DNA of 38,456 bases from a virus. This document shows, piece by piece, positions 28,592-35,881 of the stretch. The stretch is taken from positions 1 to 38,456 of IMG/VR virus record IMGVR_UViG_3300045258_000024. One strand, written 5' to 3'. Position 1 is the first letter of the stretch. Each line of letters starts with the position of its first letter. Both the position numbers and the translations under genes were made by a program. Under the pieces are notes generated by a model, which was not told where the DNA came from, did not search any database, and saw nothing but the letters and a program-made list of their open reading frames with translations.

Positions 28592-28969
28592 ATGGCGTCC
28601 TTTTTGTTTCAAATCCTTTTGTTCTCTATTTCAGTGGGTATTGTAGCTGCCATTTATCACGGCATTTTAGCCTATTCGCCAGTCCTGAACTGGTGGTTCA
28701 GGTTCGGGCAGCGGTTCGAAAAAAAATGGTTTTACGACCCGATTTGGGGTTGTGTCAAGTGTATAGCCGGGCAGATGGCCCTTTGGAGTTATTTAATTAT
28801 CGTATTCCTGGGCCAGCCGGACGGCCCTGGCGACCCGTTCGCCATTTTTCCGGATAGTAACGCCGACGCCGCGTTACTGCGCCTATTCGGCCTTATATCG
28901 TCTATATGCGCGTCGATATTCTTCGCCATGATCTTCGCCCGCGTTATTACTAAACTTGAAAATAAATAA
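28592..28969 (+). CDS. membrane protein with CxxC motif
   Basis: 125 residues with three predicted helices: SFLFQILLFSISVGIVAAIY (about residues 3-22), CIAGQMALWSYLIIVFL (about 53-69) and LLRLFGLISSICASIFFAMI (about 95-114). The motif DPIWGCVKCIAGQMALWSYL has a CxxC right before a helix, as in a membrane protein family common in Bacteroidetes phages between capsid and tape measure. A membrane protein in the tail gene cluster is unexplained; it may affect host membrane during assembly or injection. Ends 4 bases before the chaperone start. Confidence 0.6.
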   Translation: MASFLFQILLFSISVGIVAAIYHGILAYSPVLNWWFRFGQRFEKKWFYDPIWGCVKCIAGQMALWSYLIIVFLGQPDGPGDPFAIFPDSNADAALLRLFGLISSICASIFFAMIFARVITKLENK

Positions 28970-28973
28970 TCTT

Positions 28974-29462
28974 ATGCCCGACCTGCAAAGAATAGATTTT
29001 GAAAAGGGAACGTTCGAAGGCAAAAGCGGAAAAACTTATTTCGTGGAATCGTCTTTATCCGTGGCCCGTTACGCTGAATTCCAGATTTACGAAAAAGAAA
29101 TGGCCTACGGCCTGACCACAAAAAACTTATTTGAAAAGCTAAAGGCCCTTTTCGACCTGCAAAACAAGATGAAGTTTGCCGAATCCGTGGTCCTGCTTAA
29201 CGACCTAATGCGTGGCGTCGCCAAACTTCAGGAACGCCAGCCGTCCATAATGAAAATCTGCGCCCTTTATATGAACCTGGAAGGCGAAGACCGCGGAATA
29301 ATTAACCAGGACATGATCGACGCGAAAATAAAGGACTGGGCAGAAATTGACGTCCGCGATTTTTTCGCGCAGGCCATTCGTTCGGTGAATGGCTTAATCG
29401 AAATCTATGCGACCGTTTCCCAGTCCATTTCGGACCTGGCCGCGCAGGGAAACGAACAGTAA
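28974..29462 (+). CDS. tail assembly chaperone, short form (gpG-like)
   Basis: 162 residues from ATG 28974; an in-frame ATG at 28956 would overlap the membrane gene and is rejected. It is helical and soluble (KNLFEKLKALFDLQNKMKFA; AQAIRSVNGLIEIYATVSQS). Position directly before the tape measure gene matches phage G proteins. At 29447-29453 the frame passes through G GGA AAC, a canonical -1 slippery heptamer, then stops three codons later (GAA CAG TAA). The -1 frame continues open for 76 codons, so this is the G part of a G/GT pair that coats the tape measure protein during assembly. Confidence 0.75.
   Translation: MPDLQRIDFEKGTFEGKSGKTYFVESSLSVARYAEFQIYEKEMAYGLTTKNLFEKLKALFDLQNKMKFAESVVLLNDLMRGVAKLQERQPSIMKICALYMNLEGEDRGIINQDMIDAKIKDWAEIDVRDFFAQAIRSVNGLIEIYATVSQSISDLAAQGNEQ
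29447..29453 (+). other. -1 ribosomal frameshift slippery heptamer GGGAAAC
   Basis: Read in the upstream frame as G GGA AAC (X XXY YYZ), one base from the lambda G-T site GGGAAAG. It lies 6 nt before the zero-frame stop codon. The -1 frame then encodes 76 residues with no start codon of its own near its 5' end. Confidence 0.75.
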
Positions 29463-29683
29463 AACCGAAGACGGCAAAAAAGCCGATTTACCAGGAAATA
29501 GAGCATATCAGAAAGCTATGGACGGAACTTTGGTTCGAAATGGCCGGCGGCATTAAATCCGAATACGAAAAGATTAAGGCGACCGACATTTTCGAATTCT
29601 ATCCTATCCTGGATTTGTGGAAGGAAAAGCAAAAGCGGGAAATGGAACTATTGAAGTTCAAAGCAAAAAACCGACTTTTATAA
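29453..29683 (+). CDS. tail chaperone -1 frame extension (gpT-like part of GT fusion)
   Basis: An ORF in the -1 frame relative to 28974, with no ATG in its first ~29 codons. After slippage it adds 76 residues beginning RTVKPKTAKKPIYQEIEHIR, continuing through KLWTELWFEMAGGIKSEYEK, to a 236-residue fusion ending KAKNRLL. The rich Trp/Tyr/Glu content and normal codon choice show it is real coding sequence. The tape measure ATG follows 13 bases after its stop. In lambda the GT form recruits the tail tube protein to the chaperoned tape measure. Confidence 0.75.
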   Translation, partial: RTVKPKTAKKPIYQEIEHIRKLWTELWFEMAGGIKSEYEKIKATDIFEFYPILDLWKEKQKREMELLKFKAKNRLL

Positions 29684-29696
29684 AAATTCTTCCAGT

Positions 29697-32600
29697 ATGC
29701 CCGACGAATATGTAGTCCCGTTTGGGGTCGATGCCGCACCCTTTTTAAAAGGCATTGGCGACATGGAAACGGCCACCGACGACCTGACAGCCAAGGCCGA
29801 ACAGTCTAATAAAACCATGCAGGGCGCTTTTGACAATACCGGCGCCGCGGCAAAAAGGGCAGCCCAGGCGGCGGCCGAATACCAGGCACAGCTGGACATT
29901 AACGCCAAATCCGCGCAGTCTTATTTTCAACTTAACGAACGCCTGCGGATTTTAAATGAGGCGCTTTTTACAGAAACCGACCGCGGCCGGATTAAGCTAT
30001 ACCAGCAGGAAATCGACAAGACCAAGGCCAGCATTCAGCAACTTCAGAACATTGGAAAAATCGGATTCGATGCCACCGGCAAGGCCATTGAACGCCAAAG
30101 CGGTTTAATCGAACAGCTGCGCGCGAAAATAAATCTGTATAAGGACGCCATGACCAAGGCGACCGACCCGACCAGGATAGCCGGGTTAAACAAGGTTATC
30201 GAACAGACTACCAAAGAACTTACTGCGCTGTCCAATGCCGGAAAAACAGGTTTCGACAACTTAGGGAATGCCCTGGATAAGACCAGCGCCAGCATAGAAA
30301 AAACGGCGAAGTCGACGAACGTTCTTTCCAAAGGTTTCGGATTCATTCGCCAGGCTGCCTATCTTATCCCAGGTATCGGAATTGCCGGCATATTCAACCT
30401 AATCGGCGAAGCGGTGGTTTCGCTGGCTGGCAACCTGTTTAAAGCTGGCGATTCCTTCGACGCCCTGGCGCAAAAGGCAAAGCTGGCCCAAACCGTCCAG
30501 GAAGCCGCGGACAAAGACGCCGGCAAGCGCCTGACAGATTTAAAATTACTCTACGCCGCCACCCAGAACGTTACACTTAGCACAAAGCAGCGGACGGACG
30601 CGGTTATCGCTTTACAGGCGGAATTTCCCGACGCCTTCAAAAATATTTCCCAGGAAACTATCTTAAACGGTGGCGCAGCAAAAAGCTACGACGATTTAAC
30701 AAAGTCGATACTGGCCACCGCGCGCGCGACGGCGGCAAAGACGCAACTGGACCAACTGGCAGCCCAGCAGCTGGACCTGGATTTCCAGCGCCAGAAAATC
30801 ATAAACGCCACAAACCAGCAACTGGCCAAGGCCGCGGCGACGCGTATAACGGCGCCAGGCGTTTCTGGCGGCCTGGGTGGCGACCTGAACCTGGTGGAAA
30901 GTAAGGCGGCCGTAGAAAAGGACATAACAAACCGGCGGGAAGCGGCCCTGAAAATAAACGACATAGACCAGAAACGGATTAAAGACCAAACGGATTTCCT
31001 TATAAAATTCGCCGGCGGCGAACAGGCTTTAGTCGAAGTCGTGGAAACCAAAGACGCCAAAAAAATCAAAAACGCCCAGGACACGGCCGACAAGCTGGCG
31101 AAAATCCGCGAACAGGAATTAAAAACATTCCAGACTTTGCTGGCCAAATTGCAGGCCACCGACGACAGTTTACAGGCCACGGCAATAGAGGACAACCGGG
31201 CAAGCCAACTGGCAGCCAGCGACGCGAAGTTTAAAAAGATTGCCGACGATGCCCAGCGCGAAGTCGACCAGGCTAAAGTTTCGAATTCCCAGCGCGTCCA
31301 GCTACAAAAGGCCGCCGATAAGGTTATCCTGGACAGCGTGGCCGCCAATAACGCGGCAAAGCTGGATATAAACAAAAAGTTCGACGACGCGCAGCTAAAA
31401 CTTCAGGAAAACGCGCAGCGTGCCCTGGATTCCATTGGCCAGAACAGCCAGGAAAACCAGCTGGCCGCCATAAATAAAAAATATGCCGACCTGACGGCGA
31501 CGATTAAAAAAGGCGGGTTATTAACAAAACAGGCTGAAATCGCAATCCAGAACGCCCGGATTAACGAAATTTCCGACAACGAAATAAAGTTCGGAACCAA
31601 GGCTATACAGGATAAGGAAAAACTGGATATTCAGGCCATAGAATCCGACCAGAAATTCGCCGACAAGTCCGTCGCCATTCAAAAGGAAAAAAACCTGGCC
31701 ATTTTGCAGGTCGAACTAAAGGCGGCCGAAGACACGTTAAGCCTGTTAATTTCGAACGGCAAAACCGAACAGGACGAAATCGTTAAGAATGCCGAACAGC
31801 TTATCGCAAACCTGAAAGCGAAAATTGCTGGCGTCGAAGGCAATAAGGGCAAGGGCCAGACCCTACTGGAATTTTTAGGTATTACGCCCGACGGCCAGCG
31901 GAACCTGGGTTTATATGCCCAGGCTGCCAGCGAAGCGGGTAAAATTACTTCCGATTTCCTGGCCGGCCTGGTCGATGCCAACCAGCAGGCAATCGACGCC
32001 AAACAAAAGTTAATCGACCAGGATAACCAGGAACTGGAAGATTTGCAGGCGCGCCTGGACAAAGAAACCCAGTTAAGGGACCAGGGCCTGGCCAATAACG
32101 TCGATGCAATCCAGCGTGAACTGGACGCGAAGAAAAAAGCCCGCGACGAAGATTTAAAAAGCCAAAAGCAGTTACAGGATAAGCAAAACGCGCTTAAAAA
32201 GGCGCAGATAATTGCCGATTCCATAGCCCAGGTTTCCAATTTGATTACCGCCGCGTCGCAGATATTCGAAGCGTTCAGCGCCATTCCGATAGTCGGCGTT
32301 CCGCTGGCTATTGCCGCCATTGGTTTAATGTTTGGCGCCTTTGCGGTGGCCAAGGTTAACGCCCTTAAAGCAGTCGATTCTGGTGGCCAGACGTTCGGGG
32401 AAGGTGGTTATATTGATGGCAAGCCGCACACCCAGGGCGGGAAAAAATACCGCGCAATCGACGGAAAGGGCGTGGTGGAACTGGAAGGCGGCGAACACGT
32501 TACGAATAAACGTAGTACGAAAAAATATTCGACTTTACTGGATGCAATCAATAACGACGACCTTTCCGGAATGTCTGAAGACGGTTTAAAGGAAATGTTT

Positions 32601-32852
32601 GCCAGCCTGGGAATAGGTTTCGGCGTCGATTCACCCAGGGAAGCCGTGCGCGTTATCCATAAGCATAACGAACTAAAGCAGACGGTAAATTTAACCGCCG
32701 GCCCAGCTGACGGCCTTTCAAAAGACGTTAAGCAGATTTCCACGAACGTTAATTACCTGGCCGAAAAGGAACGCAACCGGACCGAACGCTGGGAAGAAAA
32801 CGGTTATGTCTACATAAAGAAAGGCAACAAAACCACCAAGTTTAAAAAATGA
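29697..32852 (+). CDS. tape measure protein
   Basis: 1051 residues, the longest gene here, directly after the chaperone pair. Mostly Ala/Gln/Lys/Asp-rich helices and coiled coils (about residues 35-210 and 280-720), with hydrophobic segments near 221-245 (LIPGIGIAGIFNLIGEAVVS) and 856-890 (AIPIVGVPLAIAAIGLMFGA). Near the C-terminus, GYIDGKPHTQGGKKYRAIDG and GGEHVTNKR resemble C-terminal modules of Bacteroidetes tape measure proteins. At about 0.15 nm per residue this would give a tail near 150-160 nm, so a siphovirus; that figure is inference. ATGA overlap with the next tail gene. Confidence 0.85.
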   Translation: MPDEYVVPFGVDAAPFLKGIGDMETATDDLTAKAEQSNKTMQGAFDNTGAAAKRAAQAAAEYQAQLDINAKSAQSYFQLNERLRILNEALFTETDRGRIKLYQQEIDKTKASIQQLQNIGKIGFDATGKAIERQSGLIEQLRAKINLYKDAMTKATDPTRIAGLNKVIEQTTKELTALSNAGKTGFDNLGNALDKTSASIEKTAKSTNVLSKGFGFIRQAAYLIPGIGIAGIFNLIGEAVVSLAGNLFKAGDSFDALAQKAKLAQTVQEAADKDAGKRLTDLKLLYAATQNVTLSTKQRTDAVIALQAEFPDAFKNISQETILNGGAAKSYDDLTKSILATARATAAKTQLDQLAAQQLDLDFQRQKIINATNQQLAKAAATRITAPGVSGGLGGDLNLVESKAAVEKDITNRREAALKINDIDQKRIKDQTDFLIKFAGGEQALVEVVETKDAKKIKNAQDTADKLAKIREQELKTFQTLLAKLQATDDSLQATAIEDNRASQLAASDAKFKKIADDAQREVDQAKVSNSQRVQLQKAADKVILDSVAANNAAKLDINKKFDDAQLKLQENAQRALDSIGQNSQENQLAAINKKYADLTATIKKGGLLTKQAEIAIQNARINEISDNEIKFGTKAIQDKEKLDIQAIESDQKFADKSVAIQKEKNLAILQVELKAAEDTLSLLISNGKTEQDEIVKNAEQLIANLKAKIAGVEGNKGKGQTLLEFLGITPDGQRNLGLYAQAASEAGKITSDFLAGLVDANQQAIDAKQKLIDQDNQELEDLQARLDKETQLRDQGLANNVDAIQRELDAKKKARDEDLKSQKQLQDKQNALKKAQIIADSIAQVSNLITAASQIFEAFSAIPIVGVPLAIAAIGLMFGAFAVAKVNALKAVDSGGQTFGEGGYIDGKPHTQGGKKYRAIDGKGVVELEGGEHVTNKRSTKKYSTLLDAINNDDLSGMSEDGLKEMFASLGIGFGVDSPREAVRVIHKHNELKQTVNLTAGPADGLSKDVKQISTNVNYLAEKERNRTERWEENGYVYIKKGNKTTKFKK

Positions 32853-35800
32853 ACACGGTTGTAAATAAATTTCGTTACACGATTGAGGATAGGATAGGGC
32901 CGTTAATCGTTTCGCCGCTGGGTGAAAGCGACTTCCTTTTGGTCTGGGAACTGGAAAGCGAAGGGAAACAGGACTATAAAAACACCCTTCCCAGCGCCAT
33001 AGTATTTACCGGCGAAGCGTTTGGCAAGCTATTGAAGATTGAAAAGTCTATTTACCGCTGTGAATTCTGCGCCATTACAATCGAACGCCGCTGCGGCGGG
33101 ACGACCTGGACGCCCTGGTTTTCCGGTCGAATGTCGAACAACGACGGACAATGGGATTTAGACCGCTGCACGGTTACCATGAAACTGGACGACATAAAAC
33201 CCGGCCAGTGTATCGAAGACAACAAAACCACCCAGGTAAACCTTTTTGGCGTAAGTATCGGCGAACGGCGCAGCATTTTTGTAAACCCGGCGGGTATTGT
33301 TTTGGAAAAGATTGATTTTTCGCAAACTGTTACCGGCGAAATCCCATGTCGAACCCTTACACCCTGGGACGCGCCAGGAACGCCGCTGGATGGCGCATGG
33401 GTGGAATACAAAGAAGAAAGAACCGAAACCGGGTCCGGCGGCGGTAAAACCTGCGTCCTGAATTCCTGGTATGCCCGCGAAACAATTCTATTACCGTGCG
33501 GCGTGCTGGCGCCGGGTCCTGAATGGATCGTCGTGGCCGACGGGTGCCCGTCAACCGACACGAAATGGGCCAGGGAAGCCCGGTTATATGGGTGCACGTA
33601 CAGCCAGCCAGATTTCGGCGACACGACATTGGCGTCCATTTTTGAATGTCAGATAGTGGGCGACGCGCCGGAAAACATAACCATAGATAACGGGTTACCG
33701 CTGGATAAGGTTTTCGAACTTTTTTTAGATAGCTTTTGCCCAGGCTACACGGTCGTAAGTGATTTTTTCCAGATAAACCCGGACGTCGAATCCGAAATAA
33801 ACTATGTTACCGGCCTACGGTCCAAAACCCGGTTTATTACGATCTTCCAAAAATCCGACGTCAAAAGACCGTCGGCCACCAATAACGCCACGATTGCAAA
33901 CATGACCCTGGGCGAACTTTTGGACGACCTGGTAAGCATGTTTAACGTGCGCTGGCGCGTCGAAGGGAATGTTTTGAGAATCGAACACGTCAGTTTCTTT
34001 GTGCGGGCTGCGGGTTTCAACCTGACGGAACCACGCTGGGCGCGCTACGTCGTCGGCCTGCGTCGATATACCTACGATTCAGCAGAAATTCCGCAAAAGG
34101 AAACGTTTACGTTCATGGAAGCCAGCGGCGGCGACTTTGAAGGCGCGCCGATTATTTACAGCGAATGCGTAACCCAGAACGGGCGCGAAAACACGGTTAA
34201 TTTTTCGGCCGAAAACGTTACCACCGACGTCCAGCTGTGCCTGGCGAATCCGGACCCTGACAGTGAAATAGTCCAGGACGACGGTTTCGTTTTTATTGCC
34301 GCAGACTTAGACGATTCGGGTTTTTTTATAATAAGCGAAGCCACTATTTTAGGCGGGAACGTGGTTAACAATTCCCTTGCCTGGGCGCAGCTGCAAAGGG
34401 ATTATTACAAATGGGACCGGCCGGCCCGCCACGGGTTAATGAACTATATAGAAACGGTTTTCAATACCGTCCAGCCGAAAAAACGTGGCGCGCCAATTAC
34501 AATTCCGCTTTGTTGCGACGACGTATTTAACCCGGACGACACGATTTCCACCGCTTTAGGTTCGGGCACAGTGGACAAAGCCACCTTTTCCTTTAAAGGC
34601 GAATCCTTAACGCTGGAATTACTTTACGCCGCCGACATTGGCCTAACGACGAACGAACCGCCATTAGCCCAGAACGACGTCGTTGCCACGCCGCAGGACA
34701 CCGGAATTTTAATAAATGTTATCGCAAACGACACGGACGAAAACAACCAGCTTTTAACGGTTAAAATAATTTTACCGCCGCTGCATGGAACGGCCATAGT
34801 TATCGGAACGAAAGTCCATTACCAGCCGGCGCTGGGTTACCAGGGCAGCGATTTGTTTTTATATACCGTTTCGGATGAATGGAACCAGCCCAGCAATAAC
34901 GCCATGGTTTCAATAATCGTAACGCCGCCGAATGCTGCGCCGATTGCGGTAAACGATGCCTACGACGGACAGAAAAATACCGCTTTAAATATTGCGTCGC
35001 CTGGTGCCGGTCTTTTCCGGAACGACTTGGACGATATTGGTTTTATTCTGGCCAGTTATGACGCGACAAGCGCAAACGGCGGAACGGTGGTCGTAAATCC
35101 GGACGGCACGTTCGTTTACACGCCACCGACTGGCTTTATTGGCCTGGACACATTCGATTACACGATAGTCGATTCCGGCGCATTAAGCGACACGGCCACG
35201 GTAACCATAAACGTTCGGGACCCGGACGCGCCGGTCGCAAATCCGGACGAATACCAGACCGTCAAAAATATTAACCTGAATATTGCGGCGCCTGGCGTGC
35301 TGGCAAACGATACGACTTCAATAGGCGTCTTAGCGACGGTTTCGGCAATTATCACAACTGCCCAGGGTGGTTCGGTGGCTATGAGTACAGACGGTTCTTT
35401 CCTTTACACGCCGCCAGCCAATTTCGTCGGCGTCGATACGTTCACCTATACCGCCGATAACGGAACGTCGACAGATTCGGCCCTGGTAACTATCCGGGTT
35501 TTGCCGCTTATCTGGGTTAAAATGTCTTTAATAAATCTGCAAACGCAACCGAATCCGCTGACCAGCTGCCCGAATGGTTCGACCGACGGCGGACTGTCTA
35601 AAACCGAAACTATCCGGGTCCAGTATTTTTCCAATGCAGCGGGAACCATACCCATAGACGTTACCGGCCTGGGATTAATTGTTTATCTGCGGACTGGCAT
35701 ACAAAGCGCACCAGGCGGCCCTGTTTCGTCGTCTGACGATGGACATTTTACCAGCGGAACGCAGAACGACCTTTTTGTTAACAGAATGTATTTCAGGCAG

Positions 35801-35881
35801 TTTAAAGATTGCAATGGAAATACTGTTTATTATACGAATGAAGTTTTTACATTGTTACCCGGTTCTTATACGATAATCTAA
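32849..35881 (+). CDS. tail/baseplate protein with three tandem Ig/cadherin-like domains
   Basis: 1010 residues. Residues ~1-600 form a Cys-containing tail protein unlike anything I can name, in the position of a distal tail or hub component. Three ~90-residue repeats follow, starting near 604, 695 and 794, each with the pattern N-D-x(n)-ANDT or RNDL-like, a G-S/T-V/A strand, Y-x-P-x-x-G/N-F-x-G-x-D-x-F-x-Y and a TV/LVTI strand, as in Big_9/cadherin-like adhesin domains. The last ~125 residues form another strand-rich module ending NEVFTLLPGSYTII. The tandem domains probably act as a spacer or carbohydrate-binding arm at the tail tip. Confidence 0.7.
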   Translation: MNTVVNKFRYTIEDRIGPLIVSPLGESDFLLVWELESEGKQDYKNTLPSAIVFTGEAFGKLLKIEKSIYRCEFCAITIERRCGGTTWTPWFSGRMSNNDGQWDLDRCTVTMKLDDIKPGQCIEDNKTTQVNLFGVSIGERRSIFVNPAGIVLEKIDFSQTVTGEIPCRTLTPWDAPGTPLDGAWVEYKEERTETGSGGGKTCVLNSWYARETILLPCGVLAPGPEWIVVADGCPSTDTKWAREARLYGCTYSQPDFGDTTLASIFECQIVGDAPENITIDNGLPLDKVFELFLDSFCPGYTVVSDFFQINPDVESEINYVTGLRSKTRFITIFQKSDVKRPSATNNATIANMTLGELLDDLVSMFNVRWRVEGNVLRIEHVSFFVRAAGFNLTEPRWARYVVGLRRYTYDSAEIPQKETFTFMEASGGDFEGAPIIYSECVTQNGRENTVNFSAENVTTDVQLCLANPDPDSEIVQDDGFVFIAADLDDSGFFIISEATILGGNVVNNSLAWAQLQRDYYKWDRPARHGLMNYIETVFNTVQPKKRGAPITIPLCCDDVFNPDDTISTALGSGTVDKATFSFKGESLTLELLYAADIGLTTNEPPLAQNDVVATPQDTGILINVIANDTDENNQLLTVKIILPPLHGTAIVIGTKVHYQPALGYQGSDLFLYTVSDEWNQPSNNAMVSIIVTPPNAAPIAVNDAYDGQKNTALNIASPGAGLFRNDLDDIGFILASYDATSANGGTVVVNPDGTFVYTPPTGFIGLDTFDYTIVDSGALSDTATVTINVRDPDAPVANPDEYQTVKNINLNIAAPGVLANDTTSIGVLATVSAIITTAQGGSVAMSTDGSFLYTPPANFVGVDTFTYTADNGTSTDSALVTIRVLPLIWVKMSLINLQTQPNPLTSCPNGSTDGGLSKTETIRVQYFSNAAGTIPIDVTGLGLIVYLRTGIQSAPGGPVSSSDDGHFTSGTQNDLFVNRMYFRQFKDCNGNTVYYTNEVFTLLPGSYTII

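Follow-up and report, generated by a model that had tools for sequence, protein, structure and literature searches.

In many tailed phages, a longer form of the tail assembly chaperone is produced by a -1 slip of the ribosome, and the availability of the proteins that assemble the tail tube around the tape measure is set by such frameshifted chaperones. The locus described here resembles the G/GT genes of phage lambda (GGGAAAG) in its placement before the tape-measure gene, the common N-terminus of the two predicted products, a putative -1 shift on an X_XXY_YYZ heptamer and a T part without start codon. However, no sequence homology to lambda G/GT could be detected, and the heptamer of the present locus is U-rich and located 93 nt before the zero-frame stop. 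The E/E+E' genes of P2 (TTTTTTG, -1 shift) also carry a U_UUU_UUN heptamer before the tape-measure gene, but P2 is a myophage, its E+E' protein has 142 aa and no downstream structure was reported for it (PMC3091744).

Distant homologs that match GT over nearly its full length, annotated as 'virion structural protein' or tail assembly chaperones, are found at the same gene position in the phrog_8914 family of phages of Bacteroides (B124-14 and B40-8), Parabacteroides, Alistipes, Elizabethkingia, Croceibacter and Flavobacterium. They differ in being mostly single-frame G-T fusions, with a run of 8 to 11 As (A8-A11) near codon 130 instead of the U heptamer. In the PRFect study, the distance from heptamer to stop averaged 26 nt for actinophage chaperones and 36 nt for those of the Xu-set (PMC10885494). 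Since PRFect uses this distance as a feature, and did poorly at long spacing like ~90 nt (PMC10885494), sites of the present type are easily missed. The open literature, as distinct from subscription papers, yielded no description of this frameshift in Bacteroidota phages.

The chaperone locus and its predicted products

The stretch of DNA analysed, called the window here, is an entire IMG/VR contig of 38.5 kb. Its tail genes are similar to those of Bacteroides, Parabacteroides, Croceibacter, Elizabethkingia and Flavobacterium phages. The following features are referred to in the text:

28974-29462, plus strand: G, short tail assembly chaperone (162 aa), a zero-frame ORF with homologs in ~45 viral contigs, an AlphaFold2 mean pLDDT of 86 and the tape-measure gene directly 3'
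29348-29350, plus strand: TGA stop of the -1 frame, 9 nt 5' of the heptamer, which limits the possible shift region (frame reading)
29360-29366, plus strand: slippery heptamer T_TTT_TTC, codons GAT TTT TTC (D-F-F), the predicted -1 shift site, with X_XXY_YYZ at the same alignment position in relatives
29366-29683, plus strand: T, putative -1-frame extension of 105 codons and TAA (29681-29683), based on -1-frame conservation and AlphaFold2 helices
29367-29462, plus strand: dual-coding overlap of the zero-frame tail of G and the first part of T, with BLOSUM62 conservation in both frames and without -1 stops
29372-29394, plus strand: candidate stimulatory hairpin (predicted), 9-bp stem, 5-nt spacer after the heptamer
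29447-29453, plus strand: GGGAAAC, the earlier proposed site, judged coincidental (missing from relatives; chance occurrence)
29697-32852, plus strand: tail tape-measure protein (context), phrog_20660 tail length tape measure, E=6.8e-26

The G ORF starts with ATG at 28974 (a TTG lies in frame at 28956) and ends with CAG GGA AAC GAA CAG TAA. In the -1 frame, the open stretch begins at 29351, 9 nt ahead of T_TTT_TTC, and the earliest ATG, at 29540, lies 80 nt past the zero-frame stop. Ordinary ORF calling misses the T part. The predicted products are G with 162 aa and GT with 131+105=236 aa, which would have residues 1-131 in common and alternative C-termini. AlphaFold2 placed helices at residues 127-137 and 141-161 of G, past the shift point, while the translation of 29360-29680 was modelled as helices (pLDDT 88.7) beginning right at the heptamer. 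According to these models, the tail helices of G would be replaced in GT by an extension helix (2-19) and the T helices. Predicted tryptic peptides are AGHSFGEWLNR and FPVHFGPGR for GT and SVNGLIEIYATVSQSISDLAAQGNEQ for G.

The window protein gave no match in Pfam and PHROG, and fold searches against PDB and BFVD returned no match at E<=0.001, with no solved chaperone confidently matched. Because of the latter, the proposed identity as a tail chaperone is based on gene position and remote homology. When joined at the U heptamer, GT aligned over nearly its full length with phrog_8914 chaperones at an hhalign probability of 96-98%, and several phrog_8914 proteins were named tail assembly chaperone by their depositors. 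The phrog_8914 profile itself matched three of 33 members of the window family (best 1.1e-5), the window protein being unmatched.

Conservation of the -1 frame and of the U heptamer

Single-sequence scans with G alone as query gave no homologs. Relatives were reached via the neighbouring tail gene: two contigs (L010, L011) that carry a related gene 3' of the tape measure gave the initial homologs, six of which were aligned and, used as query, returned 45 loci. After removal of duplicates and cut loci, 43 viral loci including the window were analysed, 37 of which, with <70% identity to one another, served as representatives. Together with a Sphingobacterium mizutaii prophage (L085), the sole chromosomal relative found by a narrower profile search of genome contigs, 44 loci were examined. 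For L010 (contig IMGVR_UViG_3300022917_000014), both contig ends lie inside the chaperone gene and apparently overlap, which suggests a circular or terminally redundant genome.

In each homologous locus with enough sequence, the chaperone is followed by a -1-frame extension of 45-86 aa; truncated loci (for example L043 and L058) are too short to show it. The motif W..L...A.G...Y..(L/I)K...(V/I).EF(F/Y) is common to the extensions of every complete locus, and the order of chaperone, extension and tape measure is kept in the inspected relatives (L010, L011, L018, L020, L085) and in the isolates. These observations uphold the earlier note in its description of the extension as coding and without a start codon in its first ~29 codons, and the -1 frame does run on to the TAA at 29681-29683. 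An extension in the -1 frame without its own start is also what characterizes lambda-type G/GT.

In every locus the -1 frame is free of stops from the heptamer to the end of the extension. Between heptamer and zero-frame stop, no -1 stops occur in 37 loci, while 86 were expected from synonymous shuffling (log10 P -50); just 5' of the heptamer they are frequent, usually within 0-45 nt. A +1 or -2 shift was ruled out, as stops interrupt the +1 frame in 35 of 37 loci. Conservation of the -1 peptide in the overlap reached Z=16.5 against synonymous shuffles, compared with Z=2.6 for the +1 frame, and the mean BLOSUM62 score per column pair was 0.61 for the zero frame, 0.53 for the -1 frame and -0.78 for the +1 frame. 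Examples of the conserved -1 peptide motif are GHSFGEWLNRNLCDRFPVHF in the window and LTNYGEGVERKLQQSYPKYF in L028. The predicted C-termini of G and of GT are each conserved across a dual-coding overlap, which measures 93 nt in the window.

An X_XXY_YYZ heptamer is present at one alignment site in the C-terminal part of G in all 43 viral loci and in the prophage. It takes the form U_UUU_UUN or C_CCU_UUY, with G_GGU_UUU also in the tally. The encoded residues vary (DFF, SFF, GFF, PFF, AFF, YFF, FFF, DFL, GFL, SFL, SPF, IPF, TPF), and what stays constant despite these changes is the third base of the preceding codon together with the U-triplet: the codon before the site ends in T, or else the site is C_CCU_UUY or G_GGU_UUU. 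Given the amino acids and codon usage, the joint probability of the heptamer in the 37 representatives amounts to log10 P -24.7, a value to be read as 'very strong' and not literally, since the lineages share common ancestry and the product overstates significance. Among other FF dipeptides of the same loci, only 16 of 94 are encoded by TTTTTT. The S. mizutaii prophage, fetched after the analysis, has CCT TTT TTT at the site plus a -1 extension. The distance from heptamer to zero-frame stop, 93 nt in the window, has a median of 96 nt and a range of 51-174 nt in 37 relatives. For Bacteroidota viromes, the conserved U heptamer is a clear annotation signature of this chaperone family.

These alignments indicate that the phage very probably makes a longer chaperone form by a -1 ribosomal slip, with the conserved U heptamer, ~87 bases 5' of GGGAAAC, as predicted slip site. 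As a whole, the observations are with high probability best explained by a lambda-G/GT-type chaperone of a Bacteroidota-type siphophage that shifts by -1 at U_UUU_UUC. Judged by sequence conservation, the frameshift is real and programmed, and is one instance of a well-known kind. Most ribosomes would read 28974-29462 and give G. A minority would slip at U_UUU_UUC, where the tRNAs on UUU and UUC could re-pair one base back on UUU-UUU, an arrangement that would suit tandem -1 slippage of the P- and A-site tRNAs; -1 reading would resume with CGC at 29366 and terminate at 29683, giving GT. By analogy with lambda (reviewed in PMC5009743), G would coat the tape measure and T would recruit the tail-tube protein. 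The 110 nt 3' of the heptamer are more structured than control windows over the 37 loci (p=1e-5), and the hairpin predicted in the window was not significant when taken alone (z -0.49). No clear enrichment of an upstream Shine-Dalgarno-like stimulator was found (21/37 vs 31/74). The slipping of the ribosome, its efficiency and the stimulatory role of downstream structure are points that we infer from the sequences.

Alternative sites and mechanisms

The earlier note had proposed a lambda G/GT-type -1 frameshift before the tape measure and had placed the slip at GGGAAAC. The frameshift is supported by the conserved heptamer and the coding -1 frame; the site is not. It is literally correct that the chaperone frame passes through GGGAAAC at 29447-29453 in the right register (G_GGA_AAC) and stops 6 nt later, so that a shift would give 160 residues of G followed by RTVKPK.... 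G_GGA_AAC is present in IS elements for which -1 frameshifting is presumed (PMC4066793), and one relative, L050, shows GGGAAAA in the matching position. However, GGGAAAC is private to the window genome among the loci compared and missing from all close relatives (the closest five, L023, L024, L025, L026 and L027, show nothing similar), and another X_XXY_YYZ heptamer arises by chance in the overlap in 15% of synonymous shuffles (P=0.15); some unrelated heptamer of this type is present in 11 of 37 representatives. In E. coli, H_HHU_UUY ranks with the most efficient classes of heptamer, and the efficiency of G_GGA_AAC is low (PMC4066793). A shift at GGGAAAC would moreover skip the conserved -1 segment 29366-29452 and so leave untranslated a stretch that is under protein-level selection. 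When both junctions were scored on a phrog_8914-type profile, the U site came out better only on average (28 of 38 cases, +3.1 bits), a weak discrimination, and for the window junctions it was not favoured (9.9 vs 9.5 bits). GGGAAAC was rejected as slip site because of its absence in close relatives, the conserved upstream segment and its chance frequency; a shift there is highly improbable. An extension without a slippery site in relatives, which the earlier note had regarded as speaking against its proposal, is thus found as far as GGGAAAC is concerned and not for the frameshift itself. The longer open -1 stretch (from 29351), with its perfect heptamer TTTTTTC, had been missed, and the expected junction peptide GN-RTVKPK gives way to a predicted DFF-RAGHSFGEWLNR.

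At the U heptamer itself, the RNA polymerase instead of the ribosome could slip on the T run and produce a frame-shifted mRNA population, as bacterial transcriptional slippage takes place on runs of 9 As or Ts (PMC5009743) and many relatives have at least 7 Ts at the site. This is less likely, and indeed very unlikely: the window has only six Ts, L044 and L045 (CCCTTTC) keep the -1 relation without a long homopolymer, and it is a codon-phased heptamer that is constrained, with the same -1 relation in every locus. Separate production of T via internal initiation or coupled re-initiation would find a start in the ATG at 29540 of the window and in the in-frame ATG that overlaps the zero-frame stop (ATGA) in L034, L039, L040 and L050. 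However, the -1 stretch lacks ATG in 32 of 37 loci and ATG, GTG and TTG in 28 of 37, and the conserved -1 peptide begins at the heptamer, in these 28 lineages 5' of any start codon; in addition, the first ATG of the window falls inside the conserved T domain and the cultured homologs are mostly single-chain fusions. Separate initiation was ruled out on the lack of starts in the 28 loci, and its probability is negligible compared with that of a -1 ribosomal shift at U_UUU_UUC.

The phrog_8914 branch and neighbouring genes

Eighteen phrog_8914-type records from cultured or sequenced phages were compared (L014, L015, L068, L069, L071, L072, L073, L074, L075, L076, L077, L078, L079, L080, L081, L082, L083, L084). 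All carry an A8-A11 run at codons 127-135, and mostly a single frame encodes G and T together. As lysine is encoded by AAA in 47-78% of cases in these loci, the A run alone is only moderately improbable. The gene is fused or split according to the length of the run, which suggests that slippage on it could yield the short as well as the long form. Where the gene is fused, a -1 slip at the As would usually meet a stop within 2-31 codons and lead to a G-like product. In Flavobacterium phage 1/32 the fusion requires a -1 shift at A10, and the joined gene was annotated by the depositors, while the extension of Croceibacter phage P2559S (A8) lies in the +1 frame. Runs of 9 As cause transcriptional slippage (PMC5009743), and inconsistency in the direction of the frame has been read as an indication of such slippage (PMC3711429). 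In phage BF8P1 (L082), A11 splits the gene into two annotated hypotheticals, and in the closely related B124-14 (L015) and B40-8 (L084) the gene is fused with A10; a sequencing error in the record or natural variation would account for the difference.

The same protein pair may therefore be made by different recoding events in the two branches, a hypothesis in which the recoding signal was exchanged inside a single family of homologous chaperones from Bacteroidota siphophages, a U or C/U heptamer on one side and A8-A11 slippage on the other. From the sequences, such an exchange has about an even chance of being correct. If so, the window branch would make GT by a -1 ribosomal shift, with C-termini of G and GT that differ and are individually selected, and the phrog_8914 branch would encode GT mostly in one frame and obtain G by slippage, the A-run length toggling the in-frame product. 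The contrast between the window family and its A-run cousins makes a swap of recoding with both products kept testable.

On its 5' side, the chaperone gene of the window adjoins a gene for a small membrane protein with a C..C motif (28592-28969). An analogous small protein is encoded at the same place in the inspected relatives L011, L018, L020, L068 and L069, and the one in Parabacteroides phage PDS1 is labelled DUF1360. In L011, a collagen-like protein with Gly-X-Y repeats (2-964) lies immediately 5' of the small membrane protein. The window tail protein 3' of the tape measure (32849-35881) contains three Ig/cadherin-like repeats (Big_9, E=8e-42).
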